Source of the DNA: an uncultured Acidobacteriia bacterium | Lineage (GTDB): Bacteria > Acidobacteriota > Terriglobia > Bryobacterales > Bryobacteraceae | DNA length: 64,000 nt | Direction: 5' to 3' | Assembly (NCBI GenBank): GCA_903929755.1 | Contig: CAIYVZ010000014.1 | Location: forward strand, 62,001-126,000 | Shown here: one piece after another, positions 1,863-39,371 of the stretch | Numbering within the stretch: position 1 is the stretch's first letter | Layout: each line of letters opens with the position of its first letter | Notes under the pieces: generated by a model | The model's input: the letters and a program-made list of their open reading frames with translations, nothing else | The model's database searches: none | Told to the model about the DNA's origin: nothing | Position numbers and translations under genes: made by a program

Positions 1863-4841
1863 TTAGAAGCTAAAACGAAGCTGGATGCTGATCTTCCGGT
1901 TCGAGGTGGAGTTCCCCCCGCCCATCGGACCAAAGCCACCTGCAATCGCACGGTACTGGCCGAAATAGGGCGAAGAAAGGTCCCCGCTGGGAGCCGCGTA
2001 GTTCACGTGGTTGATGGCGTTGTTGGCGTTCAGGCTGAGCGTCATGTTGTACTTCATGCCGGTCTGCGCGCCACCAAACATTCCGGGAGGTGGACCGCCG
2101 CCACCAGGGCCACCGCCGCCACGCATGCCACCACCACCACCGCCGCCACCAGGACCGCCCGGACCACCGCCCATCATGCCCTGATTTTGGGGACCGGATT
2201 CACCCTTCTTGCCGAAGGTCCAGGTACGGGACAGGCGAAGGTTGATGCTGACGTTGGAAGGTCCGCGCGCTGAGTTGCGCTGGATGGAAGTACCAGCAGC
2301 GGGATTCAGATTGAAGCAGCCATAATCGGCCACGTACTTCAGGTCCGCGCCGGTGCAGGAGGAAGCCGCGGCGCTGGTGAGAGCCGGGCGGATGCTGGCA
2401 GCACCCGTACCGAACGGGTCGCGGCCGGTAGTGAGGTTGTACGGCGCGCCGCTCGACATGGACATGAACGGATTCAGCGTCACCTTCCACGGCAGGGGAA
2501 CGTTGGTGCCCACAATAGCGCGGTGGCGCACGTCAGCGAACGAGGACGGACCCCATTCCGCGCGGAGGTTATACGGATCGGCAGGCTGGCCTTCGGCGTT
2601 CGACTTCCCATAGGAGAGCGAGTAGAAACCGAACAGGAACAGCTTCTTGTAGTTCAGGTTCGGGCTAAACATGAACTGGTGGGTACGGCTGAGGCCTGCC
2701 GACTCCGTCAGGTTCCGAATCACGTTGTCCCTGAACGGGTACACGCCGTTAATGGGGGTATTGATGTTGCGGGTGTTCAGCAGGTGAATCCCGCGGCTGG
2801 TGACGTAGTTCCCGCTCACCCGGAGGTACTTATTGACCTGGCGATCCACGCCCACGTTGGCCTGCCACTGGCGCGGGGCGCGAACCCCACTGTAGAGGGG
2901 CTGCAGACGCTGTGCCTGTTTACCGGCGGCGAGCGATGTCAGGGAGGGAATCGTCGGGTAGAAATCCGGGTTCAGAATCAGGTAAGACTGTTGCGTGATG
3001 CCGTTGAAGCGGTCCGCGTTGAGCGTGTAGTTGTTGGAGACGCGGTCGTAGAAGGTGCCGAGACCGGCCCGAATCACCGTCTTGCCCTGCTTGCCTCCAC
3101 GCGAATCCACGCCCCAGGCGATGCCGATGCGGGGCGCCCAGTTGGCGTAATCCCCTATATTGCTCTGGTTTTCGTAACGCAGGCCATAGCTAAGCGTGAA
3201 GTTCGGCTTGATCTTCCAGTCGTCATTCAGAAAAAGTCCGATATCGAAAAGGCTGACCGAAGTGAGAGGTGTACCAGCGGCGAGGCTGAACTGCCCCGCA
3301 CCACCGCCCAGGGTCCGAATTGCCGAGGCGGTTAGGCCACGAGCCTGCAGTTGCAGGGTGCGCTGATAAACCTGCAGCGCGGTCAACTGGACCGAAGCGC
3401 CTGGAATCGCCACGAAATTGGCGTCCAGCTGCGGCGCCGTGGCGCCCAGGAAGCTGAACGAACCGTTAAAGTTGCTGAGCGACGTGCTGTCGAGCATCGA
3501 CTCGCGAATGCGCAGCCCGGCCTTCATCACGTGTGCGCCGTGGGTGAAGGTAGTGGTATTCGCCACTTCGAAGCTGTTCAGTTTGGTGCCGGAGTTGCCG
3601 ATCGCACTGCTGCCGCTGCTGAAGGCACCCTGCACATTCAGGGTGGGCAGCGTGCCGGTGGAGGTGTTCTGAGAGTTGGTGTTGATGTACTGGAACCTGG
3701 TCTCGTTCACCATGTTGGCGTTCACAATGGCGGTTTCCGTCATCTGCAGCATGTGCTCGGTGGTGGAACTGTCGTGCGCCAGAGATTCGAGGGAGAAATC
3801 GCCGACACCCTGCTTCTCCGACGTACCCTTCGTGAACTGATAGCGGGCCACCAGCGTGTTGTTGGTGTTGATCGTATAGTCGAGACGCGGCGTGATGCCG
3901 GTGCGCGTCTGCGGTGTCGTGATCGCCTTATTTACGGTCAGGGGATTCAGCGACGAATCGAGCGTCGTCGCAATGATGAAGGCATTTTCCGTGATGTCGC
4001 GGCGATCAAAATCCAGGCCGTAAGATGCCTTGTTCTTCTTAATCGGGCCGGTTACATTGGCTCCCACGAAGTTCTGTCTGTAGGGCGGAAGCGCGGCTGT
4101 AAGCAGAGGGCTGCGCGAGTTCAGGTGCTGGTCGTTGTACTGGTAGAAGACCTGGCCACGGAGCTTATCGCTACCGGGCCGGGTCAGAATTTCAATGCGC
4201 CCAAAGCCGGGGCGATCATACTCAGCCGAGAATGGGTTCGAATTGACGCGAATTTCACGAATGGACGACTTCGGCGGCAGCTGTCCACCGGAGAACCCGT
4301 CAATGTAAATCTGCCCGCCGCCCGGCCCTGCACCGGGACCGGCCATCGCCTGTAACTGCTGCGCGAGTTCGTCGGGGTCGTCAGAGAGCGCGGCGAGTTC
4401 CTTCTCTTTCAGCACCAGCGCGCCCCCATTGTTGGCCGCATCAGCGGTCACGCTGTTGGCTTCGTCTTCCACGTTCAGAACCGTGGCATCGGCCAGAATT
4501 TGTAGCTGCGCATCGAAGGTCATGGGCGCGGTGATTTCCACGTCGCGACGTTCATTGACGGTAAAGCCCTTCGCGATCACGCGAATCTGGTACTTGCCGG
4601 CGTTGAGACCGGTGAAGCTGTATAAACCCTGGGCATCGGTGGTATTTCTTTTCTCGCCACCGGGTCCGCGAAGTTGCACGATGGCCCCGGGGACGGATGC
4701 GCCCGAAGGGTCAGTAACCGCACCTTTCAATGAAGGTCCGGAAGGTGCCTGCGCAAAGGCGCTGGGCACAGCCGCAAGTAAAAGAGCGGCGAACGTGAGA
4801 ATAGACGCACGTGTAGTGTTCAGTATAAGCATTCGTTTCAA
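1863..4841 (-). CDS. TonB-dependent receptor with carboxypeptidase-regulatory N-domain
   Basis: This is a 992-residue outer-membrane receptor. A signal peptide ends near residue 30 (…AVPSAFAQAP). A carboxypeptidase-regulatory beta-sandwich follows at about 35-115 ('LKGAVTDPSGASVPGAIVQL'), then a plug-like region with 'NSNPFSAEYDRPGFGRIEI', then a long beta-barrel. The protein ends in an aromatic residue (…LRFSF), as outer-membrane barrels do. Near the C-terminus (about 895-945) is an unusual Gly-rich tract with PGG and GGGMRGG runs. The substrate is unknown; family members import polymers or oligosaccharides. It lies 39 bases downstream of a DUF5666-like secreted protein that carries similar Gly/Met-rich repeats, so the two are probably co-transcribed. 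Confidence 0.88.
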   Translation of the reverse strand: MKRMLILNTTRASILTFAALLLAAVPSAFAQAPSGPSLKGAVTDPSGASVPGAIVQLRGPGGEKRNTTDAQGLYSFTGLNAGKYQIRVIAKGFTVNERRDVEITAPMTFDAQLQILADATVLNVEDEANSVTADAANNGGALVLKEKELAALSDDPDELAQQLQAMAGPGAGPGGGQIYIDGFSGGQLPPKSSIREIRVNSNPFSAEYDRPGFGRIEILTRPGSDKLRGQVFYQYNDQHLNSRSPLLTAALPPYRQNFVGANVTGPIKKNKASYGLDFDRRDITENAFIIATTLDSSLNPLTVNKAITTPQTRTGITPRLDYTINTNNTLVARYQFTKGTSEKQGVGDFSLESLAHDSSTTEHMLQMTETAIVNANMVNETRFQYINTNSQNTSTGTLPTLNVQGAFSSGSSAIGNSGTKLNSFEVANTTTFTHGAHVMKAGLRIRESMLDSTSLSNFNGSFSFLGATAPQLDANFVAIPGASVQLTALQVYQRTLQLQARGLTASAIRTLGGGAGQFSLAAGTPLTSVSLFDIGLFLNDDWKIKPNFTLSYGLRYENQSNIGDYANWAPRIGIAWGVDSRGGKQGKTVIRAGLGTFYDRVSNNYTLNADRFNGITQQSYLILNPDFYPTIPSLTSLAAGKQAQRLQPLYSGVRAPRQWQANVGVDRQVNKYLRVSGNYVTSRGIHLLNTRNINTPINGVYPFRDNVIRNLTESAGLSRTHQFMFSPNLNYKKLFLFGFYSLSYGKSNAEGQPADPYNLRAEWGPSSFADVRHRAIVGTNVPLPWKVTLNPFMSMSSGAPYNLTTGRDPFGTGAASIRPALTSAAASSCTGADLKYVADYGCFNLNPAAGTSIQRNSARGPSNVSINLRLSRTWTFGKKGESGPQNQGMMGGGPGGPGGGGGGGGMRGGGGPGGGGPPPGMFGGAQTGMKYNMTLSLNANNAINHVNYAAPSGDLSSPYFGQYRAIAGGFGPMGGGNSTSNRKISIQLRFSF

Positions 4842-4880
4842 TCCTGTTATTTACTGCGTTTTCTTTGGTCAGGTGGAGAG

Positions 4881-6146
4881 TTACGGGGTCATCCCGGAGA
4901 GATCGAAGCCGCCCATGCCGCCACCACCCATGCCCTGGCCGCCACCCATACCGCCACCCATGCCCTGGCCGCCGCCCATACCCTGACCGCCACCCGCACC
5001 GCCCTGACGTCCGCCCCCGCCCTGCCCTGCCATCGCCGACGCCTGCGCCATGCGAATTATCATGCCCGCATTCCCGACAAGAGTAATCGCGGTCAACTGA
5101 TCCGGCTTGCCCGTCTTCGTGCTGGAAACGATGATGCTTTGGCCGGGTTTCAGAGCTTCCACCGTAACCGGCGGCATCCGTTCAATCATCTGGTTCACAT
5201 CCGGCATACCCGCGCCGCGCCCGCCCATACCGCCAGGGGCCCCGCCAGGCATACCGCCAGGACCACCAGGGCCACGCCCCATACCGCCGGGCATGCCACC
5301 AGGCGCACCGCCGGGCATTCCGCCAGGAGCACCACCGGGCATTCCACCAGGAGCACCACCAGGCATTCCACCGCCCATGGCGCCAAAATCCGGAAGGGCC
5401 TTCACCTGCGAATCCGGAGCGATCTTCACCGTGAACGTCTTCAGCGTCCCCACTTCCTTAACGGTGATTTCTTTCGCCGCCACATCCACCGAGACAATGT
5501 CCCCGGCGCGAGTCTGAAAGGTGCCGAAAACCAGTTCGTCAGCCTTTACCACCAGACCATCCTCGCTCTTTTCACCTCGGGCGCGAACCTGGTCACCCAC
5601 CGCAATTTCAGCCAGCTTGCTCGGCTTCGCTTCGAGGAACTTCACGCTGTCCGGAGCATAGCGCTTCAGATTCGCCTTGGCATCAACCGTCACAGTGGCA
5701 ACTTTATCCACGCCGCCAACCTTGAGCTTCAGCAGCAAAGTTTCGCCATCTTTCTTCGTGACCACACCCGAAACACCGCGGGTCGTCCATTCCTGGCGAT
5801 CTTTGTCGTTTTTTTTGGTGATGTCGGTCGCCGACATAATGATGATGCGGCGAAGGTCTGTTGTTCCAGGTTCCAGCGCGACCAAAACACGATCACCAAT
5901 CGCAACCTCGCCGACCGAAACAGTCTCGGCCTTCTTCAGATCTTTCTCACCAGGAGCGATCCGCTGCACAATACTGGAACCGGACACTTTGGCGGAGACA
6001 GCGTCACCCGTATCGGGCTTAACCACGATCTCAGCCGTTTCGGGCTTCAGCGCCGAAACGCTGCCAACAAACTGACGAACCTGAGCATTTGCCTGCGCGG
6101 CGATCCCCATGATCGCGATAAGACAAGTGAAAAATAATCGTTTCAT
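4881..6146 (-). CDS. secreted DUF5666-like protein with Gly/Met/Pro-rich repeats
   Basis: The 421-residue product has a signal peptide ([21 protein letters not shown]). Three small beta-rich modules of DUF5666 type follow, recognisable by '[12 protein letters not shown]', '[12 protein letters not shown]' and '[11 protein letters not shown]'. After about residue 255 comes a run of PGGAPGGM units. A second Gly/Met-rich stretch (GGGQGMGGG type) lies at the C-terminus. The modules probably form small barrels outside the cytoplasm; no function is established. The gene is directly upstream of a TonB-dependent receptor that also contains a Gly-rich tract, which suggests a shared envelope complex. 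The repeats are imperfect at DNA level and could vary in length between strains. Confidence 0.75.
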
Positions 6147-6239
6147 TAACCTCAGTAGACGACAGAACAGCGTGCTTCGAGTCTGAACATTTGTAAACAG
6201 GGAGGGGATTTTACAAACCTTTGCGAAAACAACTAAGGC

Positions 6240-6404
6240 TCAAGGCTTCGTTGGCGGGCGCCAGTTTGCCAGATTGCGGCCAAACCAGCCAATAGCGGAG
6301 GTGGCGGCGATAATCAGCCCAAACTGCCACCACAGGTGATTCAAGGCGCACCAGCCAAGCCCGGCTGCCGCAGCAATTAATAAAAAACATCCACAGGCGC
6401 ACAT
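6240..6404 (-). CDS. possible small membrane protein
   Basis: An ATG at 6404 opens a 54-residue frame with two hydrophobic segments ('CFLLIAAAAGLGW' and 'FGLIIAATSAIGWF') and a basic tail. It starts just past the metK terminator. I see no clear ribosome binding site and recognise no family. An overlapping frame at 6211-6402 is also open. A longer version using a GTG inside the terminator stem is unlikely. It could be spurious. Confidence 0.3.
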   Translation of the reverse strand: MCACGCFLLIAAAAGLGWCALNHLWWQFGLIIAATSAIGWFGRNLANWRPPTKP

Positions 6405-6410
6405 AAGAAT

Positions 6411-6445
6411 GAAAAAAGGAGCACAGTGGCGAACCACTGTGCTCC
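6411..6445 (-). terminator. rho-independent terminator of metK
   Basis: A perfect 12-bp stem (GGAGCACAGTGG at 6418-6429 against 6434-6445) closed by a CGAA loop is followed, on the minus strand, by a run of six U. It starts 19 bases after the metK stop codon. This is a textbook intrinsic terminator. Confidence 0.92.
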
Positions 6446-6463
6446 CTATAACTTACAGATTAT

Positions 6464-7615
6464 TTACAGACCAGCGGCGGTGCGAAGCGCGACGGCCTTG
6501 TCTGTCTTTTCCCACGTGAAGGTCTCTTCGTTGCGGCCAAAGTGGCCGAACGCCGCGGTCTTCTTGTAGATAGGACGACGAAGCTGCAGGGTTTCAATGA
6601 TGCCGCGGGGCGTGAGAACGAAGTTGGCGCGGACGATCTCCGTCAGCTTGCTTTCCGCTATCTTGCCCGTACCGAACGTATTCACCATCACGGATACCGG
6701 GTCCGCAACGCCAATGGCGTAAGCGAGCTGGACTTCCGCGCGGTCCGCAAGACCAGCGGCCACAACGTTCTTGGCGATGTACCGAGCCATGTAGCAGGCC
6801 GAGCGGTCAACCTTTGTCGGATCCTTGCCCGAGAACGCGCCACCACCGTGACGGCCCATGCCACCGTACGTGTCCACGATGATCTTGCGGCCGGTAAGGC
6901 CGGTATCGCCGTGGGGTCCGCCGATAACGAAACGCCCCGTGGGATTGATGTGATACTTGGTGTTTTCGTCCACCATGCTCTGGGGAACAACCACGTCGAT
7001 AATGTGCTTGCGAACGTCGGCGCGAAGCTGTTCGGTGGAGACATCGTCACCGTGCTGCGTCGAGATCACAACAGCGTCAATGCGAGTCGGGCGGCCATCC
7101 ACGTATTCCACGGAAACCTGGCTCTTGCCATCGGGGCGGAGATAGGTCAGTTCGCCGAAGTTGCGGGCATCGCTGAGACGCTTGCAGAGCTGGTGAGCCA
7201 GCTGGATCGGCAGCGGCATCAATTCTTCGGTTTCGTTGCTGGCGTAGCCGAACATCAGGCCCTGGTCGCCGGCGCCGCCCGTATCCACACCCATTGCGAT
7301 GTCGGGGGACTGCGTCTGAATGATGTTGATGATGCCGCAGGTCTTGGAATCAAAACCGAATTCGGCATTTGAATAGCCGATCTCGCTGATGGTGTTCCGC
7401 GCCAGCGTGGGCACATCGATGTGACCGTTGAAAGTGATTTCGCCCGAGACAACGCAAAGGCCGGTGGTGATAAGGACTTCGCAAGCCACGCGACCACTCG
7501 GGTCCTGCGCCAGAACGGCGTCAAGAACGGCGTCGGAAATCTGGTCGGCCATCTTATCCGGGTGGCCTTCAGTGACCGACTCGGATGTAAAAAGATACTT
7601 TTGAACTTCTGCCAT
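6464..7615 (-). CDS. metK: S-adenosylmethionine synthase
   Basis: This cytosolic enzyme makes S-adenosylmethionine from methionine and ATP. The 383-residue product has '[14 protein letters not shown]' near residue 12, the ATP-binding '[12 protein letters not shown]' near 115, and '[16 protein letters not shown]' near 258, all standard MetK motifs. The length is usual. It stands alone between a strong downstream terminator and a 250-base divergent intergenic region shared with hrcA. That region contains a candidate promoter and a structured leader, so expression may be controlled at the 5' leader. Confidence 0.97.
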
Positions 7616-7656
7616 GAATTCTCCGGTTTATGAGTAGAGGACTGCTGCGTGGACCT

Positions 7657-7677
7657 GCGGGAGGCGGCTACCCGCCT
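7657..7677 (-). promoter_or_regulatory. structured metK leader with two competing hairpins
   Basis: On the minus strand the predicted metK leader can form AGGCGG/CCGCCT (7662-7667 with 7672-7677). It can instead form GCGGG/CCCGC (7657-7661 with 7671-7675). The two stems share bases and exclude each other. A further long-range match, GGACCTG/CAGGTCC, pairs 7651-7657 with 7703-7709 if transcription starts further upstream. I do not recognise a known SAM riboswitch consensus. A regulatory role is inference. Confidence 0.3.
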
Positions 7678-7691
7678 GTACATAAGCCTTC

Positions 7692-7721
7692 AGTATAGAC
7701 AACAGGTCCGTTTAGCGGCAA
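7692..7721 (-). promoter_or_regulatory. candidate sigma-70-type promoter of metK
   Basis: On the minus strand TTGCCG (7716-7721) and TATACT (7692-7697) are separated by 18 bases. A start near 7685 would give a leader of about 70 bases to the metK ATG. It is assigned by consensus match only. Confidence 0.4.
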
Positions 7722-7890
7722 AACGCAAAGAACTCACGTCTGGCCCGGCCCAGCTTACCAGCGACACGACCACCGCCCAAAGCCTATGCAAGCGGACCGG
7801 AACACCGCGGACCACGCGAACCGTGCAACCCTCCCAGGCGGCAGAACACGGCCTGTGTCAAAATAATGAATGACGGGAGACTTTCGGCCA

Positions 7891-8925
7891 ATGGCGGCGC
7901 AGAGCAGGACACTGAATGCAAGAGAACGCGGCATTCTGCACCTGATCGTGCGCGGGTACATTGAGAACGGTGAACCGGTCGGCTCCCGAACTCTCTCCCG
8001 CATGCGCGATCTCGCGCTCAGTCCGGCAAGCATCCGCAACGTGATGGCCGAACTGGCGGACGAAGGTTACCTCGCCCAGCCACATACCTCAGCCGGTCGC
8101 ATCCCTACCGACAAAGCCTTCCGGGATTTCGTGGAGATCGTGAACACGTCGCCTGTTGCGGTTAGTGACCCCGGACACATCTTCTCAGCGATTCAGAACG
8201 CCGATACGCTGGAAGAACGGGTCGAAAACGCCTCCCGGGTGCTTGGCCAGATGACCGGCAACGTCGGCATCGTCACTGCGCTGCCCCGTTCCAGCCAGGA
8301 ACTGGAACATCTGGAACTGGTGAGCCTTTCTGATCAGCGCGTCCTGATGATTGTGGCTACCCGCGATCACCTGGTCCGCAACCGCGTGGTTCGCCTGGAG
8401 CGAGAGTTGACCTCCGACCAACTCTCGGCCATCCGTAATTACGTGAACATCAATTTCGCCGGCTGGACGCTCGACCGCGCCCGAACGGAACTGCTGCGCC
8501 GCATCGAAGAAGAGCGTGCGCTGTACGACGCGATGCTGCAGCAGATCGCCGTTCTCTGCCAAAAAGGTCTGCTGACCGTCGATCAGGACCCGCATGTAGC
8601 CATGGACGGCGCCTCGAACCTGGTCGGCATCGACCTGCACCTGACCCGCGAACGGTTGCGGGAAATATTCCGCGCCCTCGAAGAAAAAGCCAGCGTTGTG
8701 GCCATGCTCGACCGGTTCCTCGAATCCGCCCGCGGCGAAGTCGGTATTCAGGTCGGCCTAGAAGCCGCACACCCGGCCATGAGCGAATTCAGCCTGATCG
8801 GCATCACCATCGACCTCCCCTCAGGAGTAAGAACCCGGATGGCCGTCCTCGGACCCATGCGGATGGACTACGAACGGGTAGTTTCCGCCGTCAGCCAAAT
8901 CGGCGCAGTGTTCGGCAACCTGTAA
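7891..8925 (+). CDS. hrcA: heat-inducible transcription repressor HrcA
   Basis: HrcA represses heat-shock operons by binding CIRCE operators and needs GroEL to fold. The product of about 344 residues has the N-terminal winged-helix region ('RERGILHLIVRGYIENGEPVGSRTL' region, then 'SPASIRNVMAELADEGYLAQPHTSAGRIPTD' region) and the GAF-like C-terminal domain ending 'MRMDYERVVSAVSQIGAVFGN'. I place the start at the ATG at 7891, preceded by GGGAG; an in-frame ATG at 7870 is an alternative. grpE and dnaJ follow on the same strand. No CIRCE repeat (TTAGCACTC/GAGTGCTAA) is visible upstream of hrcA or grpE. Confidence 0.93.
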   Translation: MAAQSRTLNARERGILHLIVRGYIENGEPVGSRTLSRMRDLALSPASIRNVMAELADEGYLAQPHTSAGRIPTDKAFRDFVEIVNTSPVAVSDPGHIFSAIQNADTLEERVENASRVLGQMTGNVGIVTALPRSSQELEHLELVSLSDQRVLMIVATRDHLVRNRVVRLERELTSDQLSAIRNYVNINFAGWTLDRARTELLRRIEEERALYDAMLQQIAVLCQKGLLTVDQDPHVAMDGASNLVGIDLHLTRERLREIFRALEEKASVVAMLDRFLESARGEVGIQVGLEAAHPAMSEFSLIGITIDLPSGVRTRMAVLGPMRMDYERVVSAVSQIGAVFGNL

Positions 8926-31620: not shown

Positions 31621-34600
31621 TCACCCCACCGCGCTCGGATCCGCCCCAATCGTCCCCACCAACTCCTCCAAATACCCCTCCGCCGAAACAAGCGCCACCT
31701 GCGCCGCATCGCCCTGCGCCGTCCAGAACGCCACATCCCGCCGCTGCTTCGCCTTCAGCCGCGCCCCATACCAATCGCTCGCCACCAGCGCCTCCCGGCT
31801 AAACATCCCCCGAATCTCCGGGGCATGCACATCCTTCCCCTCGTAATGCCCGTCGCGCATGATATGCAGCAAGGCCCGAATCGGTGGACAAGCATCTGCC
31901 ACACTCCCGTCCTCAAAGTAATGCGCCGCCACCCTCTGCTGCGCCTCGCAAATCGCGTCCACGCCCTCCGCAAAAGCCCCCAAATCCTGCTTCTCCGGTC
32001 GCAGCATCTCGTCCGTAAACACGGACCCCGGCGATTCAAAAATCCGTCCTAAAAACCGGTCCACAAACGTCGAAGTAATCCGATACCCCAACCGGCTCGC
32101 CAGTACCTGCCGCCCCTCGTGCCCGAAATCGTTTACCCTCTCCAGCAACCCGTGCGAGATCAGGTAATCCGCCTCCCGCTCATGAATCCGCATCCGGCAC
32201 CAAAGCTCCGGCACCAGCATACTGTTGTCGTGATCCACCCGGTACTTCGGCCCCACATACCCCGCCGCCGTCGTGAACCCGCTATACCCCGTCAGAATCG
32301 CCGACACCAGCGCATTATTCACGTCAATCACCGGAGGCAGCGCATTGAACGGACCCTTCGTCAGCGCCCCCTCACTCCCGAACCCGGTGGTCGAAGGGGA
32401 CTTCCCCGTCAGGCTGCAAATGAAGTCCATAAACAGCTCCGGCAGTTCCTGGTAATGAATCGGACTGTACACCGCCAGATTCGGAATCCCCGCCTTGGCG
32501 TCTGGTGGATTGTTTCTGCGCCCCGCCAGCACCGCGTTCACAGGGAAATACACAGGCTTGTCCGCCGGAATCTCCCGCGCCAGCCGAGTCCCCATCTCCG
32601 CCAAATGCCCTTCCCTCGGACTCGCCAGATCCGGCCGGAGCTGCAAATACCGCGGATTCTTCGAAGGCGAACCATCCACCAGCCGGGGCTCCGACGACGA
32701 CACCACAAACTCCGGCTTCCCCTCCGCCACAAACCCCGCCAGCAGCTTCTTCATCGGCTCGCTGAACGCGTCAAACGCCACCACGTTGTCCAGCATCTTC
32801 TGGACATCCGCCTTCGTCAAAGGCTCAAAATTCGAAAGGAAATTCCGCGGCCCCGCCAGATCCGCCTCAGCGTCTTTGTCAAAGCCCCGGTGAATCGCAT
32901 CGTCCGGCCTCTGGAACAACCGCGCTTCGCAGTTCCCCAGCAACTTCACACTCTTGTGCGGATACCCTGCCTCCAGGTTCGTCAGGCTCTCGCGCGGCAA
33001 CACCACCGATGCCGTAATGTCATCCTCAACCTGCACTTTATCCGCCGGACTGAAATCCGGACGCAGCTTGAAAATCCGCCACGACCCGTCCGGATCCCAC
33101 CCCACCCGCATATAGTTCCCCATCAGCTTCTGGTTATCGAACTTCAGCTCGTGCCCCAGCAGCCCGTTAATTCGGTCCACCGTAAAGTGCGATTGCCACT
33201 GCTCGCCCCACTCCGGCCGATAATACCGTTTCACCGCCACAATTAACTGCCGGATCGTCGCCGCCAGCCCGCGTACCCAGGCGTTGTGCGCATCCGTGTA
33301 CTCCGCCGAAGGCGTCAGCAGCTTAATCACCGAACCCAGTGACCTCTGCGAACTCAGAATCGGCCGCGCCGCCCGTGCCTTGTCCTTTTCTTCCCGATAA
33401 ATGCCCGAAAAATCCCTCTTCAGGATCGCCGTCACTTCTTCCATCGCCCGGTGATAATCGCCCACAAACACCGGCCCGCGCATCAAAATACTGCTCAGCG
33501 ACTTCGAAATTTCAGATTTTCCGCCGCCGGAAACCGTGCACGGCTTATGGCATAGAATCCCATCCGCACGGCTCGCAATCAGCCGCCAAACCGACCCGCT
33601 CGGCTGCTTCTCCAGCCGGATCTTTGTCCCCCAGGGCAACACATAAACGTCACCCGCCCGCAATACCAGTTGGGCACTTCGATCACCCAGCGGCCACCGA
33701 ACCACACCCTCGCGCACGTGGAAATCCGCATTCTCGGGAACGTAATAGACGTTCGGATACGCCTTATCCACCGCATACCGCTCCGTCTTCAACTCCACCT
33801 GGTCGCCCAGCAGCGCCATCGCCTCTTCATACACAACGGCTTTAGTCAGCACCGTCCGCCCGGCCTGAAAATCCTGCCCCAAAACATAGGCCGGAAACGC
33901 AATCGCCCCGCCCGCATGCTCTTCTTCAGCCATGCCGAACAGATTCGCCGCATAGCTGATCTGCGTCTTCACTTCCTTCTTGCAGTAGCCGTAGTAGTTG
34001 TCGGCGATGATCGTCACAATCACGCCCCGGTGGTCGCGGCAAGTCGCCTTGAAAGCGTTGCCGTCGTTGTACGGCTCGGCCTCGCTCTCCCAGCACATCC
34101 CGTTCGCGCGCTCCAGCTCCGTCGCCGCCGAAACGTGCGGAAGCCCCAGCGATTTCTTCGATACCCCCGCCAAATGCGGTGCCAGAATCACGCACCCTGT
34201 ATGCCCGCTCCAGTGCGCCGAATCCTTCGCCGCATCGTTCTCCGGCAGATACGGATCCCCGGCGTTGCCGAAGATGCTCTCCACAAAGTCCAGATTGCTC
34301 ACCAGACTCGCCGGAGCGAAGAACCGGGTCTCCATACTGCGCGCGCCATCCGTCCCCGTCGCCGGACACACCAGGGGCCGCAGCAGCAGCGACACGAACA
34401 TGTGCGCACGTTCCGCCTGGTTCGCCGTAAACGGCAAAGCCTGCACCTCCGCAGGCGGCTGCAGAGCCTTTTCCAGCAACGCCGCAAACGCCACCTTCGG
34501 GACCGTAATTTTGTCCGCCGGAACCGGCATCCCGCCCTCCACCACGTGGAAGATTCCCTTCGTCGTCCGCCGGTCGCTCTTCGGATTATGCAGAACGCCC

Positions 34601-34944
34601 TGCGCCACCCGATACGACTTCAAATAAGGCGAAGAAAAGTAGTCCTCACCCGCCGGCAACGACATCGCTCGCGCCAGCCCCGGCCTGTCCAGCACCAAAG
34701 TATTGGCCGGCAGCTTCGCCACAGCGAAACCATCCAGGTACGCTTCCAGAAAATTCTGGATGCGCCCGTCCGCCGGACACATCTTCCCCGCCAGCAACAG
34801 GTCTTTCTGGTGGTAATTCCGCAACAGCGGGCCCGCCAGATGCAGGAACGCCGGGTCTTTCGGATGCGCACTGGTCGGCTGCCCCAGCGCCGCCAGTTTC
34901 AGATCGATATACCGGAGAAGTTCATCCTGGTCAGCAGAATACAC
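31621..34944 (-). CDS. probable PPi-type phosphoenolpyruvate carboxykinase
   Basis: The 1107-residue cytosolic protein has no signal peptide or membrane segment. Its size and motifs fit the diphosphate-dependent PEP carboxykinases (about 1100-1150 residues) known from Propionibacterium and Entamoeba, which interconvert oxaloacetate plus PPi with PEP, phosphate and CO2. Telling segments are 'GNCEARLFQRPDDAIHRGF' near 668, the loop 'LTGKSPSTTGFGSEGALTKG' near 845-865, and 'DNYYGYCKKEVKTQISY' near 315. The start is a GTG with an AGGAG site seven bases upstream. It is not in an operon with other carbon-metabolism genes. The family assignment is from memory of its motifs. Confidence 0.6.
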   Translation of the reverse strand: MYSADQDELLRYIDLKLAALGQPTSAHPKDPAFLHLAGPLLRNYHQKDLLLAGKMCPADGRIQNFLEAYLDGFAVAKLPANTLVLDRPGLARAMSLPAGEDYFSSPYLKSYRVAQGVLHNPKSDRRTTKGIFHVVEGGMPVPADKITVPKVAFAALLEKALQPPAEVQALPFTANQAERAHMFVSLLLRPLVCPATGTDGARSMETRFFAPASLVSNLDFVESIFGNAGDPYLPENDAAKDSAHWSGHTGCVILAPHLAGVSKKSLGLPHVSAATELERANGMCWESEAEPYNDGNAFKATCRDHRGVIVTIIADNYYGYCKKEVKTQISYAANLFGMAEEEHAGGAIAFPAYVLGQDFQAGRTVLTKAVVYEEAMALLGDQVELKTERYAVDKAYPNVYYVPENADFHVREGVVRWPLGDRSAQLVLRAGDVYVLPWGTKIRLEKQPSGSVWRLIASRADGILCHKPCTVSGGGKSEISKSLSSILMRGPVFVGDYHRAMEEVTAILKRDFSGIYREEKDKARAARPILSSQRSLGSVIKLLTPSAEYTDAHNAWVRGLAATIRQLIVAVKRYYRPEWGEQWQSHFTVDRINGLLGHELKFDNQKLMGNYMRVGWDPDGSWRIFKLRPDFSPADKVQVEDDITASVVLPRESLTNLEAGYPHKSVKLLGNCEARLFQRPDDAIHRGFDKDAEADLAGPRNFLSNFEPLTKADVQKMLDNVVAFDAFSEPMKKLLAGFVAEGKPEFVVSSSEPRLVDGSPSKNPRYLQLRPDLASPREGHLAEMGTRLAREIPADKPVYFPVNAVLAGRRNNPPDAKAGIPNLAVYSPIHYQELPELFMDFICSLTGKSPSTTGFGSEGALTKGPFNALPPVIDVNNALVSAILTGYSGFTTAAGYVGPKYRVDHDNSMLVPELWCRMRIHEREADYLISHGLLERVNDFGHEGRQVLASRLGYRITSTFVDRFLGRIFESPGSVFTDEMLRPEKQDLGAFAEGVDAICEAQQRVAAHYFEDGSVADACPPIRALLHIMRDGHYEGKDVHAPEIRGMFSREALVASDWYGARLKAKQRRDVAFWTAQGDAAQVALVSAEGYLEELVGTIGADPSAVG

Positions 34945-35795: not shown

Positions 35796-36254
35796 TTAAC
35801 TGTCCGGATCTAACGGCTCCTGGTCCAGCTTCCTCTTCACCGGCACTAAGGCCTGCAGCGTGAACAAATTCAGCACTGCCAGAATCACTGCAACTTCATA
35901 ATTCCCGAGCGCACACGCCGCCCCAATCGCCCCGGTATTCCAGATGCTGGCGGCGGTTGCCGTCCCGTGGACACTCAGCCCGTCTTTAACAATCGCGCCG
36001 CCGCCTACAAAACCAATACCCGCCATCAGACCCTGCAGCAGCCGGGACATGTCACCCGGCCCGCTCTGATCGCCCAAAACCAGCAGATACCCGCAACACG
36101 CCATCGCCACAATCGGAAACGTCCGGATGCCAACCGCGTGCCCCTGCTTCTCCCGAAACCACCCCGTCGGCAGTGCCAGCATATACGACAACCCAATCCT
36201 GGCCGCCGTCACCGCCCCCGGAATCGCCGCGAAAGACTTCGAGTCAAATTGCAT
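35796..36254 (-). CDS. MgtC/SapB family membrane protein
   Basis: The 152-residue protein has four to five membrane segments and the MgtC core 'ARIGLSYMLALPTGWFREKQG' region near 20, with 'GIRTFPIVAMACCGY' and 'GLMAGIGFVGGGAIVKDG' following. It ends in a short charged tail. MgtC proteins affect Mg homeostasis and ATP synthase in pathogens; the role in free-living bacteria is unclear. It is probably co-transcribed with the downstream SDR gene. Confidence 0.88.
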   Translation of the reverse strand: MQFDSKSFAAIPGAVTAARIGLSYMLALPTGWFREKQGHAVGIRTFPIVAMACCGYLLVLGDQSGPGDMSRLLQGLMAGIGFVGGGAIVKDGLSVHGTATAASIWNTGAIGAACALGNYEVAVILAVLNLFTLQALVPVKRKLDQEPLDPDS

Positions 36255-36412
36255 GGTTCACCGCCGGTTTCATTCTAAGCCCGATCATGCCAGCGTTCTT
36301 GCCCTCGTTGTTGCTGCGCTGCTTTTCAATATGCAGGACACCGTCGTCGGGTACTCCACATGCAGTAGAAGTTATGTCAGGATAGAATCATGGTTCAGGA
36401 TTAGCGTCCGAC

Positions 36413-36904
36413 ATGAATTTCCTTAGAGAATCACTCGATGGCCTATTGCCGGTGCTTCCGGTCCTGGTCATTCTTGTTGCCCTCACCCAATGGGCACTTT
36501 GGATATTGGGTCTGGGGAGGTTCCGGAACCGGGTCCCACAATCTAGGATCCGCTATGTTCTTGCGGATCTTTTCGTAAAAATTATTAACGATTTCCGGCA
36601 CCTGCTGGCGCTGGCGATCGTCACGCTCTTTGGCGTTGTGGTTCTCGCTGCGATTTGGCCCGGCATGATGAAGCAGGATGTCGCCCTCATTAAAGAGGGC
36701 TTGCAGGGGGTATCTGCAACATTAGGCGGACTAATCGGCTCAATCATTGGCTACTACTTCGGCGAGTCCGCCGGAAAGAACAGCATGCGAGGCGGGGACG
36801 CTACACCGCCTGTCGCGATAGAGCAAGAACTTCCCCAAGAGAAGACCGATATCCAGATTCCGCCGAAACCAACAGGGCTGGGAGAAAACGGAGAAGACAA
36901 ATGA
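36413..36904 (+). CDS. membrane protein of the pYEATS cassette
   Basis: The 163-residue product has three hydrophobic segments: 'LPVLPVLVILVALTQWALWIL' region (about 12-34), 'LLALAIVTLFGVVVLAAIW' (about 63-82), and a C-terminal helix 'GGLIGSIIGYYFGESAG' (about 105-122). A hydrophilic cytosolic tail of about 40 residues follows. I recognise no named family. Helices of the GxIIGYYFG type are frequent in small membrane partners of bacterial conflict systems. Its stop overlaps the ATG of the pYEATS gene (ATGA), so the two are coupled. Its base composition looks less GC-rich than the neighbours. A TAGAAT box lies at about 36385. Confidence 0.65.
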   Translation: MNFLRESLDGLLPVLPVLVILVALTQWALWILGLGRFRNRVPQSRIRYVLADLFVKIINDFRHLLALAIVTLFGVVVLAAIWPGMMKQDVALIKEGLQGVSATLGGLIGSIIGYYFGESAGKNSMRGGDATPPVAIEQELPQEKTDIQIPPKPTGLGENGEDK

Positions 36905-37257
36905 TCGTTCCCAAGCTTGAACTAAAAGATTCGCTCTTTGATCCCGATTCACCAGACCAAACACCGCGGTGGCGTAATCCACGCAGCGACAAGCCCCTGT
37001 ACAGGGTCTTTCTCTACTTAGACGGGCCCGGCTTACCGTATGTAAACGCCGTGACTTACGTACTACACCCTACATTCAAAGAGCCCACCCGGCAAGTCTT
37101 CCGCACCTATGCCAATCCCCACTGCAAGCTGGAATTATGGACTTGGGGGTTGTTCCGAGTTCAGGCTATCGTCACTGATCGCGACGGAAACATGCTAACG
37201 CTAACCCACAACTTGCAGTATTCGAGCGAGTTTCCAAAAGTGACCTTCGCCGCATAG
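36901..37257 (+). CDS. pYEATS-domain protein (predicted conflict/immunity)
   Basis: The 118-residue soluble product matches the prokaryotic YEATS (pYEATS) domain: 'YRVFLYLDGPGLPYVNAVTY', 'VLHPTFKEPTRQVF', 'CKLELWTWGLFRVQAIV', 'LTHNLQY'. Eukaryotic YEATS domains read acyl-lysine. Prokaryotic versions are predicted sensors or adaptors in nucleotide-activated and other conflict systems, and are not characterised biochemically as far as I know. The domain fills the protein, with only about 30 residues before it. Translation is coupled to the upstream membrane protein by a 4-base overlap. No CARF, TIR or nuclease gene is adjacent, so this may be a minimal two-gene unit. Confidence 0.75.
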   Translation: MIVPKLELKDSLFDPDSPDQTPRWRNPRSDKPLYRVFLYLDGPGLPYVNAVTYVLHPTFKEPTRQVFRTYANPHCKLELWTWGLFRVQAIVTDRDGNMLTLTHNLQYSSEFPKVTFAA

Positions 37258-37574
37258 TTTGCACCCATGTCTTCGGCCCGTTTTTCAGGGACTCCTCAGC
37301 TCAGGACCAGGGCGAAATCACGGTCCGCCTCGAGCAATGGCGGGACGGTCAGCCCCCGCCTCAGCAAAACGTACGGCACCAGCCAGTGCCGGGCCTCCAG
37401 AAAGGCTTCGCCTGCTACACAACCGAAGCCGCCGAATTCGCTGCCCTCCATCAGCACCTCGAACGCATGACCAAAGTCGATGATCACAGGGCCAGGTCTT
37501 CGGCCAACCGAGATTAGCGCAGCACCGCAAGACCTCAACGCGCTGACCGTGCGCCTGTAACAAAACCGCACAAA
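37258..37574 (+). other. gap after the pYEATS gene with a start-less coding-like stretch
   Basis: This 317-base gap has no supported gene. In the plus frame ending at TAG 37515-37517, about 80 codons are open and read like real protein ('DQGEITVRLEQWRDGQ', 'GFACYTTEAAEFAALHQHLE'). No ATG, GTG or TTG opens the frame at a sensible place. The first part resembles the N-terminus of ECF-type sigma factors (GEIT-xxL-xxW-xxG), but the rest does not. It may be a gene remnant. Other short frames on both strands look spurious. Confidence 0.3.
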
Positions 37575-39371
37575 TTATCGCCCGTAAACGTACCGGCCGC
37601 GCCGCGGATCCGCCGCACCATGAAATGCCCCCCCGCTGATCTGAATCACCACCGGCGCCGACCCGTTGCTCCAGGGCCGCGAAACCGTCACCTTGTGGCC
37701 CAGCTTCGTCATCTCGTCCATCGTCGCTTTCGGAATCCGGTCTTCAATGTTCACCTTGCCGGCAATAAACTCATGGTTCGCAAACGTGGCATAGAAATGC
37801 TCGCTCTGGAACCGTGGCGCTTCCACCGCTTCCTGCGGCGTCATCCCGAAATCAATCAGGTTCAACAACACCTGCAGCATCGCCTGATCCTGGTTATCGC
37901 CACCCGGCGTTGACATGGCAAAAATCGGCTTTCCGTCCTTCAGCACCATCGTCGGGCTCAATGTCACCCTGGGCCGCTTCCCGCCCACCAGCGAATTCGC
38001 GTGGGTCGGCGTATTTACCAGCAGGCACTGCAGTCGCGTCCCCATCGGAATCCCCGTATCGCCCGCAATCACCGAAGGCAGCCACGCGCCACTCGGCGTC
38101 GCCGAGAACACATTGCCCTGCGCATCCGCCGCATTCACACAGGTCGTATCGGCCACACCTTCCGTCACACGAGTCGTCTGCGCCATCGGCAGCGGACCAC
38201 CAAACGCCCCCGGACGGCTGTCCATCGAAGCCTTCGCCGGATCAATTTCGCCCATGCGCTGCTTGCCATACTCCTTCGACAGCAGCGTCTCTTCCGGAAT
38301 CTTCGAGAACTTCGGATCCCCGTAGTACCGGTCGCGATCCGCAAACGCCAGCTTCACCGCTTCCAGTACCGTATGCAGATACTTCGGCGAATTATGCCCC
38401 ATCGCCTTCAGGTCATAACCTTCCAGAATGTTGAGCGCTTCCAGCATCACCGGACCCTGCGTCCAGAAACCCGGCTTCTGCACCTCGTACCCGCGATACG
38501 TTGTCGTCCGCGGCGTATCGATCTCGGCATGAAACTTCGCCATATCGTCATACCGAATCAGGCCGCCGTTCTTCTCATTGAAATCCGAGATCTGTCTTGC
38601 AATCGGCCCGCGATAGAAGTAATTCCGAACCGCTTCCAGCTTCGCCACGCGATTGCCCCGGGCCTTCTTTTCGGCCGCCACCAGCTGTTGCATGGTGCGG
38701 GTCAGGGAAGGTTCGGCAAAGATTTCGCCCGGTGCCGGGACATGCCCGTTCGGCTGGAAGAACTTCATCGAGACCGGCCACAATTCAAGATACTGTTTGC
38801 TGGTGCCGATGTAGCTGGAGAGAATTTCGGGAGTCGGGAAACCTTTCGTGTAGTCGAGAGCCGGAGCCACCACCTGGGCGAAGCTCATGGTCCCGTATTT
38901 TTCCAGCGCCAGCATCAGGCCGTCGAACACACCAGGCACCGTCGCCGCCAGAATACCGTTGGCGGGAATCGGAGGCATGGTTGCCTTCTCTTCCCAGGGT
39001 TCAGGCTTGCGGTTGCGGAAGAATTCGGGTGTCGCCAGCGCGGGCGCGGTCCCCACGCCCGAAATCACCACCACCGGCTTATCTTTCATCTTGATCAGGA
39101 TCGGCATCTCGCCGCCCAGTCCAAAGTGATCGAGTTCGGTGACGGAAGCCGCCAGCACCGAAGCGACGCCCGCGTCCACCGCGTTGCCACCCTTTTCCAG
39201 AATCTGGACCCCGGCTGCGACTTCCAGGTTGTTCCCCGCGCCCAGCATGAACTTCGTGCCGCGCACCGCCGGGAACATGGTGGCCGGATTCTGCGCCACC
39301 AACACCACGCCGCAGCCCAGAACCAGACCCATCGCTCCAAAACGCCGAACTCTCTTCGAAAGCCTCATCAT
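37575..39371 (-). CDS. ggt: gamma-glutamyltranspeptidase
   Basis: The 598-residue secreted precursor has a signal segment (…LVLGCGVVLVAQNP), the N-terminal 'ILEKGGNAVDAGVASVLA' and 'PGVFDGL' motifs, and the autoprocessing nucleophile Thr409 in 'VADTTCVNAADAQGN'. The C-terminal small subunit has 'STPGGDNQDQA' and 'GGKRPRVTLSPTMV'. It cleaves gamma-glutamyl bonds of glutathione and related peptides. A cysteine in place of the usual His after the Thr pair is a mild deviation. An AGGTGA site precedes the ATG. Confidence 0.92.
   Translation of the reverse strand: MMRLSKRVRRFGAMGLVLGCGVVLVAQNPATMFPAVRGTKFMLGAGNNLEVAAGVQILEKGGNAVDAGVASVLAASVTELDHFGLGGEMPILIKMKDKPVVVISGVGTAPALATPEFFRNRKPEPWEEKATMPPIPANGILAATVPGVFDGLMLALEKYGTMSFAQVVAPALDYTKGFPTPEILSSYIGTSKQYLELWPVSMKFFQPNGHVPAPGEIFAEPSLTRTMQQLVAAEKKARGNRVAKLEAVRNYFYRGPIARQISDFNEKNGGLIRYDDMAKFHAEIDTPRTTTYRGYEVQKPGFWTQGPVMLEALNILEGYDLKAMGHNSPKYLHTVLEAVKLAFADRDRYYGDPKFSKIPEETLLSKEYGKQRMGEIDPAKASMDSRPGAFGGPLPMAQTTRVTEGVADTTCVNAADAQGNVFSATPSGAWLPSVIAGDTGIPMGTRLQCLLVNTPTHANSLVGGKRPRVTLSPTMVLKDGKPIFAMSTPGGDNQDQAMLQVLLNLIDFGMTPQEAVEAPRFQSEHFYATFANHEFIAGKVNIEDRIPKATMDEMTKLGHKVTVSRPWSNGSAPVVIQISGGAFHGAADPRRGRYVYGR

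Follow-up and report, generated by a model that had tools for sequence, protein, structure and literature searches.

YEATS domains are readers of modified lysines in human chromatin, and their bacterial counterpart, the pYEATS domain (PF20305), is said to play a role in conflict systems, as proposed earlier from comparative genomics; in the literature that we searched, no mention of the term "pYEATS" was found. In the pocket of human YEATS2, Y262 and W282 form a clamp around acetyl-lysine, H259, S261, G283, E284, and F285 make further contributions, and mutations in this pocket abolish binding (PMC5651844). YEATS2 and the other eukaryotic readers GAS41, Taf14, Yaf9, and AF9 share both the fold and the pocket residues with the protein described below as ORF2, at approximately 14 to 22% identity over the aligned part. 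In contrast to these readers, however, ORF2 is bacterial and is accompanied by a membrane partner rather than a chromatin partner.

Within bacteria, the pYEATS loci that we collected from other contexts carry the domain fused to SIR2 (L047/L008), to TIR (L113 and L117), or to a papain-family protein (L114), joined to a membrane domain in a single protein (L046, L096, L098, and L112), or next to a patatin gene (L048 and L095), with a patatin-like gene, recognized by eye, three genes away in L101. Proteins of the SIR2, TIR, and patatin types are well known as effectors in bacterial immunity. These contexts agree with the view, expressed in an earlier note on this DNA, that pYEATS domains are usually fused or linked to effectors.

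Here, we analyze a two-gene cassette in a 64,000-nt stretch of DNA (the window) from a host genome of 6.9 Mb in 212 contigs, whose gene content and nearest named relative (L012) point to an acidobacterium. ORF2 is a clear member of PF20305 by Pfam score, structure, and pocket, but differs from other members in that it is a lone 118-aa domain, obligately paired with a specific three-helix membrane protein, ORF1. While the TIR-, SIR2-, and patatin-linked loci place an effector-type protein beside or in fusion with the same sensor domain, ORF1 is a membrane protein without a recognized enzyme domain. We give a near-even chance to the reading that the pair is a mobile module in which ORF2, a predicted acyl-lysine reader, acts as sensor and controls ORF1 as its effector.

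Results

The earlier note had described an ATGA-joined gene pair that stands alone on the plus strand between minus-strand genes and is less GC-rich than its surroundings, and all three points were borne out. Both frames are open and share four bases (Table 1), an overlap that likely couples the translation of ORF1 and ORF2. They are the sole plus-strand genes at this site, and both flanking genes lie on the minus strand. The cassette has a GC content of 53.0%, whereas the window, which served as reference, has 60.4%; only 0.16% of all 845-base segments of the window have a lower value, and each of the two genes lies near the bottom of the window's per-gene GC distribution. A search for sigma-70-type promoters found none, although the sigma-70 model may not suit the promoters of this host. 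As judged from comparative sequence data, ORF1 and ORF2 are not chance open reading frames, since 19 relatives elsewhere retain both genes in the same order. In addition, both genes are under purifying selection, with dN/dS values of 0.08 to 0.16 among close relatives.

Table 1. Features of the ORF1/ORF2 cassette and its surroundings (positions in the window)
Feature	Position	Strand	Basis or remark
MgtC-family gene, left flank	35796-36254	-	Neighbor of cassette
Region without synteny with nearest relative G003	36291..37572	.	Left flank collinear to 36290, right flank from 37573
ORF1, membrane protein, 163 aa	36413..36904	+	Open reading frame, 20 homologous loci
ORF1 codons 104-118, LGGLIGSIIGYYFGE	36722..36766	+	Most conserved stretch of ORF1
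ORF1 C-terminal tail, disordered, acidic, predicted cytoplasmic	36767..36901	+	AlphaFold2 model, charge analysis
ATGA start/stop overlap of ORF1/ORF2, 4 bases	36901..36904	+	Sequence
ORF2, pYEATS protein, 118 aa	36901..37257	+	Open reading frame, Pfam match
Gamma-glutamyltransferase gene, right flank	37575-39371	-	Neighbor of cassette

The genes were found together wherever their pairing could be assessed. With ORF1 as the only query, a scan across 84,980 species genomes returned 20 loci in seven phyla, namely, Acidobacteriota, Pseudomonadota (alpha, beta, and gamma), Bacteroidota, Planctomycetota, Actinomycetota, Verrucomicrobiota, and Nitrospinota; these labels follow the record titles, and since most of the genomes are metagenome bins, individual assignments may be in error. 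A pYEATS gene lies directly downstream of ORF1 on the same strand in each of the 19 loci with enough flanking sequence, either overlapping ORF1 or within approximately 130 bases (genes in the relatives were called with a simple composition-based script, and their starts are approximate). At the twentieth locus, L014, the contig ends 150 bases past ORF1. Since the scan made no use of ORF2, this co-occurrence is an independent test of the conserved pairing, and across the genomes scanned the pairing is obligate as seen from the ORF1 side. One sequence was reached by separate searches, in that L023 is identical to L002/L011 of genome G049. Pairwise distances of the two proteins correlate (Mantel r of 0.54, permutation p of 0.0002; r of 0.45 without near copies), which is what linked inheritance alone predicts.

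ORF2 matches PF20305 over residues 34 to 105 of its 118 (E-value of 3.8e-17; 62.4 bits against a curated cut-off of 26.9), so that its description as almost only a pYEATS domain is accurate, and it also passes the general YEATS family PF03366 (7.3e-6). Its AlphaFold2 model (pLDDT of 92) is a beta-sandwich that resembles solved YEATS domains, as had been expected: among the PDB matches listed, 50 of 50 are YEATS structures, with E-values down to 5.6e-5 and TM-scores of 0.5 to 0.63. By sequence, the closest PDB entry is human YEATS2 (4.9e-5), whose residues H259, S261, Y262, W282, G283, E284, and F285 align with H56, T58, F59, W82, G83, L84, and F85 of ORF2. H56, S/T58, W82, G83, and F85 are present in all 20 pair-linked pYEATS proteins and F59 in 19 of them. 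Likewise, the pocket histidine and serine/threonine are invariant among 13 pYEATS proteins of other contexts, in which phenylalanine or tyrosine is always found at its position and the tryptophan position usually holds W or Y. Because these residues are fully or largely conserved in both sets, the most economical prediction is that the ligand of ORF2 is acyl-lysine. A further tryptophan, W80, is found in every member of the pair family, whereas each of the 12 other pYEATS domains aligned at this position has a different residue there; W80 may mark a contact of ORF2 with ORF1.

The intact pocket also bears on a toxin-antitoxin-like arrangement, in which ORF1 would be toxic on its own, silenced by bound ORF2, and set free when ORF2 is lost or titrated. 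An obligate pair of tight or overlapping genes with a wide, sporadic spread would fit such an arrangement, as would a small membrane protein with a glycine-rich helix on the toxin side. A plain antitoxin, however, needs no intact ligand pocket, and no copies were found on the plasmids searched, so that we consider this arrangement quite improbable.

The three-helix architecture ascribed to ORF1 was recovered, with two helices visible by hydropathy and the third supported by the AlphaFold2 model and by conservation. Hydropathy gives two strong hydrophobic stretches at about residues 3 to 37 and 57 to 87, while the model places helices at residues 2 to 32, 44 to 87, and 90 to 128. Helix 3 is glycine-rich, only weakly hydrophobic, and extremely conserved. 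The conserved core of the protein comprises the entry of the second transmembrane helix, INDFRHLLAL (core part DFRHLLAL), and the motif GGLIGSIIGYYFGES of the third. In the LGGLIGSIIGYYFGE stretch, 11 of 15 residues are invariant or almost so among 21 ORF1 homologs, and G109 and I111 to E118 are invariant in the homolog alignment. The likely topology of ORF1 has the N terminus outside and the acidic tail in the cytoplasm, since most of the positive charge resides in the loop joining helix 1 to helix 2, which has 4.8 K+R per protein, compared with 1.4 for loop 2. The disordered acidic tail is 38 to 66 residues long.

Searches with ORF1 in Pfam, NCBIfam, PADLOC, and the PDB gave no meaningful match. 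Assignments to Colicin V, Yip1, VTT, or other Pfam families were rejected, as the matches are weak and scattered and those of ORF1 itself are far below the cut-off. Membrane proteins of phage lysis modules that match phrog_1544 (L036 to L041) have a hairpin and an IIGYYFG-SA motif as in ORF1, whereas their N-terminal half differs. Comparison of the ORF1 family with these proteins by hhalign gave a probability of 95% (E-value of 3e-8 over 59 columns), but the unrelated YajC family, used as a control in the same comparison, scores almost as high (87%, 4e-6). We therefore do not claim kinship with holins or common descent with the phrog_1544 proteins.

A location in defense islands, which the earlier note had raised, did not hold up. 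Within 5 kb, the pairs are accompanied by 106 genes, which match 147 Pfam families; none of these families occurs in more than two genes, and neither recurrent nor visibly defense-enriched neighbors were found among them. The PADLOC matches near the pairs, among the matches listed, are single genes that mostly hit kinase-type models. In the neighborhoods sampled, then, the pair stands by itself outside defense islands, surrounded by ordinary metabolic and envelope genes. Such unremarkable neighbors would suit a regulatory role outside conflict, in which the YEATS protein reads protein acylation as a stand-in for the acyl-CoA pool and adjusts the membrane protein in metabolism or stress adaptation; so would the strong purifying selection and the intact pocket, which makes a real ligand likely. 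Nevertheless, the pair is missing from 18 of 18 same-genus genomes and from nearly the entire family, and other pYEATS domains are linked to effectors of the SIR2, TIR, and phospholipase types, which leaves this regulatory role somewhat unlikely in our estimate.

At one locus (L013, positions 2580 to 5002), the pair precedes a contractile tail-sheath gene and a T4 gp19-like tube gene by approximately 600 bases, in an injection-system-like cluster that is cut by the contig end. This position just upstream of sheath and tube could mean that the pair is accessory to a larger apparatus, for instance a contractile injection system. Yet L013 is the only locus with such neighbors, and a scan of the 20 host genomes gave a sheath match in only 4 of them, over the cut-off in only 2. 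An accessory gene of this kind is mostly refuted by these results, and we regard the idea as very improbable.

The distribution of the pair is sporadic, as had been suspected: seven phyla hold it, and neither gene was found in the 18 other genomes sampled from the same genus. A further 199 genomes of the family yielded no true ORF1 homolog; the weak matches to the ORF1 profile (L118 to L122) turned out to be YajC proteins or chance frames. A tree built from both proteins has well-supported branches that mix phyla, and it puts the three named Acidobacteriota members at three separate positions. The pYEATS domain itself is scarce in the four phyla surveyed (4/297, 9/396, 2/399, and 8/343 genomes, counts that include the index genomes). 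Searches of 72,556 plasmids and of phage and viral collections including IMG/VR gave no copy of the pair. In comparison with the nearest relative, G003, synteny breaks exactly at the cassette (Table 1), and the matches to its left and right flanks lie on two different contigs of G003; in G006, the best matches to the two flank genes are approximately 115 kb apart. This evidence consists of matching breaks in relatives rather than a clean empty site and is consistent with acquisition at a rearranged site. Taken at the level of sequence comparison, the best reading is that the pair is a horizontally spreading, mobile two-gene module.

The surroundings of the cassette hold further features. Positions 37296 to 37571 of the window may contain a gene remnant, of which 37379 to 37492 are 75% identical to DNA of G008 (L072, positions 722 to 835), where the match adjoins the same flank gene as in the window. 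G003 carries a serine/threonine-kinase-like frame beside the corresponding right flank. On the left, a minus-strand gene for a 1107-aa protein (positions 31621 to 34944) has no Pfam match and is kept with the left flank in G003.

Other arrangements were seen among the remaining pYEATS loci. A second recurrent dyad, found in two different phyla (L045, positions 5985 to 6955; L101, positions 6134 to 7123), consists of a protein of approximately 225 aa, without Pfam match and TIR-like by eye, directly before a lone pYEATS protein of approximately 100 aa. In L095 (positions 6097 to 8836), a patatin gene, a gene for a 92-aa two-helix protein, and a membrane-pYEATS gene follow one another; a similar two-helix protein is encoded near the membrane-pYEATS gene of L098 (positions 4708 to 4995), with a muramidase gene between. 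Finally, papain-like proteins in L114 (positions 4908 to 6806) and L115 (positions 5211 to 7082) have a signal-like stretch at the N terminus and at least two tandem YEATS-like domains, which is an uncommon context for a lysine-reader fold.

Discussion

The best argument for the roles of the two proteins comes from analogy: ORF1 occupies an effector-like slot that is filled by enzymes in other pYEATS loci, and because it stands where SIR2, TIR, or patatin stand elsewhere, ORF1 would be the effector and ORF2 the sensor. For the proposal that a membrane effector works with a pYEATS partner, this slot and the obligate pairing speak in favor, while the part that could have come from defense islands fell away. 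Neither observation that the earlier note had named as refuting its idea was made: ORF2 does resemble YEATS in structure, and the homologs pair the two genes and are spread sporadically across phyla. The conflict interpretation is nonetheless the one that we favor, and the pair probably has a role in conflict or abortive infection.

In the working model of sensor and effector, ORF2 would be a soluble YEATS-fold sensor with a complete pocket for acyl-lysine of the acetyl or crotonyl type. ORF1 would be its dedicated inner-membrane partner, with helix 1 running from outside to inside, a hairpin, the glycine-rich helix 3, and the cytoplasmic acidic tail, and would hold ORF2 at the cytoplasmic face. 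ORF2 would bind an acylated lysine of a protein that arises or builds up when the cell is infected or its metabolism collapses, and this binding would change the complex; ORF1 might then assemble via its glycine-rich helix and depolarize or permeabilize the membrane, so that growth stops or the infected cell dies. We infer the ORF1-ORF2 complex, the binding of acyl-lysine, the formation of a pore, and the role against phage or in other conflicts. In its strictest form, a minimal two-gene immune system in which a YEATS reader senses lysine acylation and a membrane-permeabilizing partner executes the response, the idea is unlikely. If true, it would to our knowledge be the first immune trigger based on the reading of acyl-lysine, and it would bear on the origin of the eukaryotic YEATS readers.

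What is new here, as far as sequence comparison goes, is a pYEATS system pared down to a single reader with a single membrane protein. Among bacteria, pYEATS domains are uncommon, and they are related to a major class of chromatin readers; a lone reader obligately tied to one membrane protein is the simplest such system, small enough for direct testing. If its pocket binds acyl-lysine, the bacterial reading of protein acylation as a signal of danger or infection would become testable, and the pair would offer a prokaryotic point of comparison for the origin of YEATS readers.
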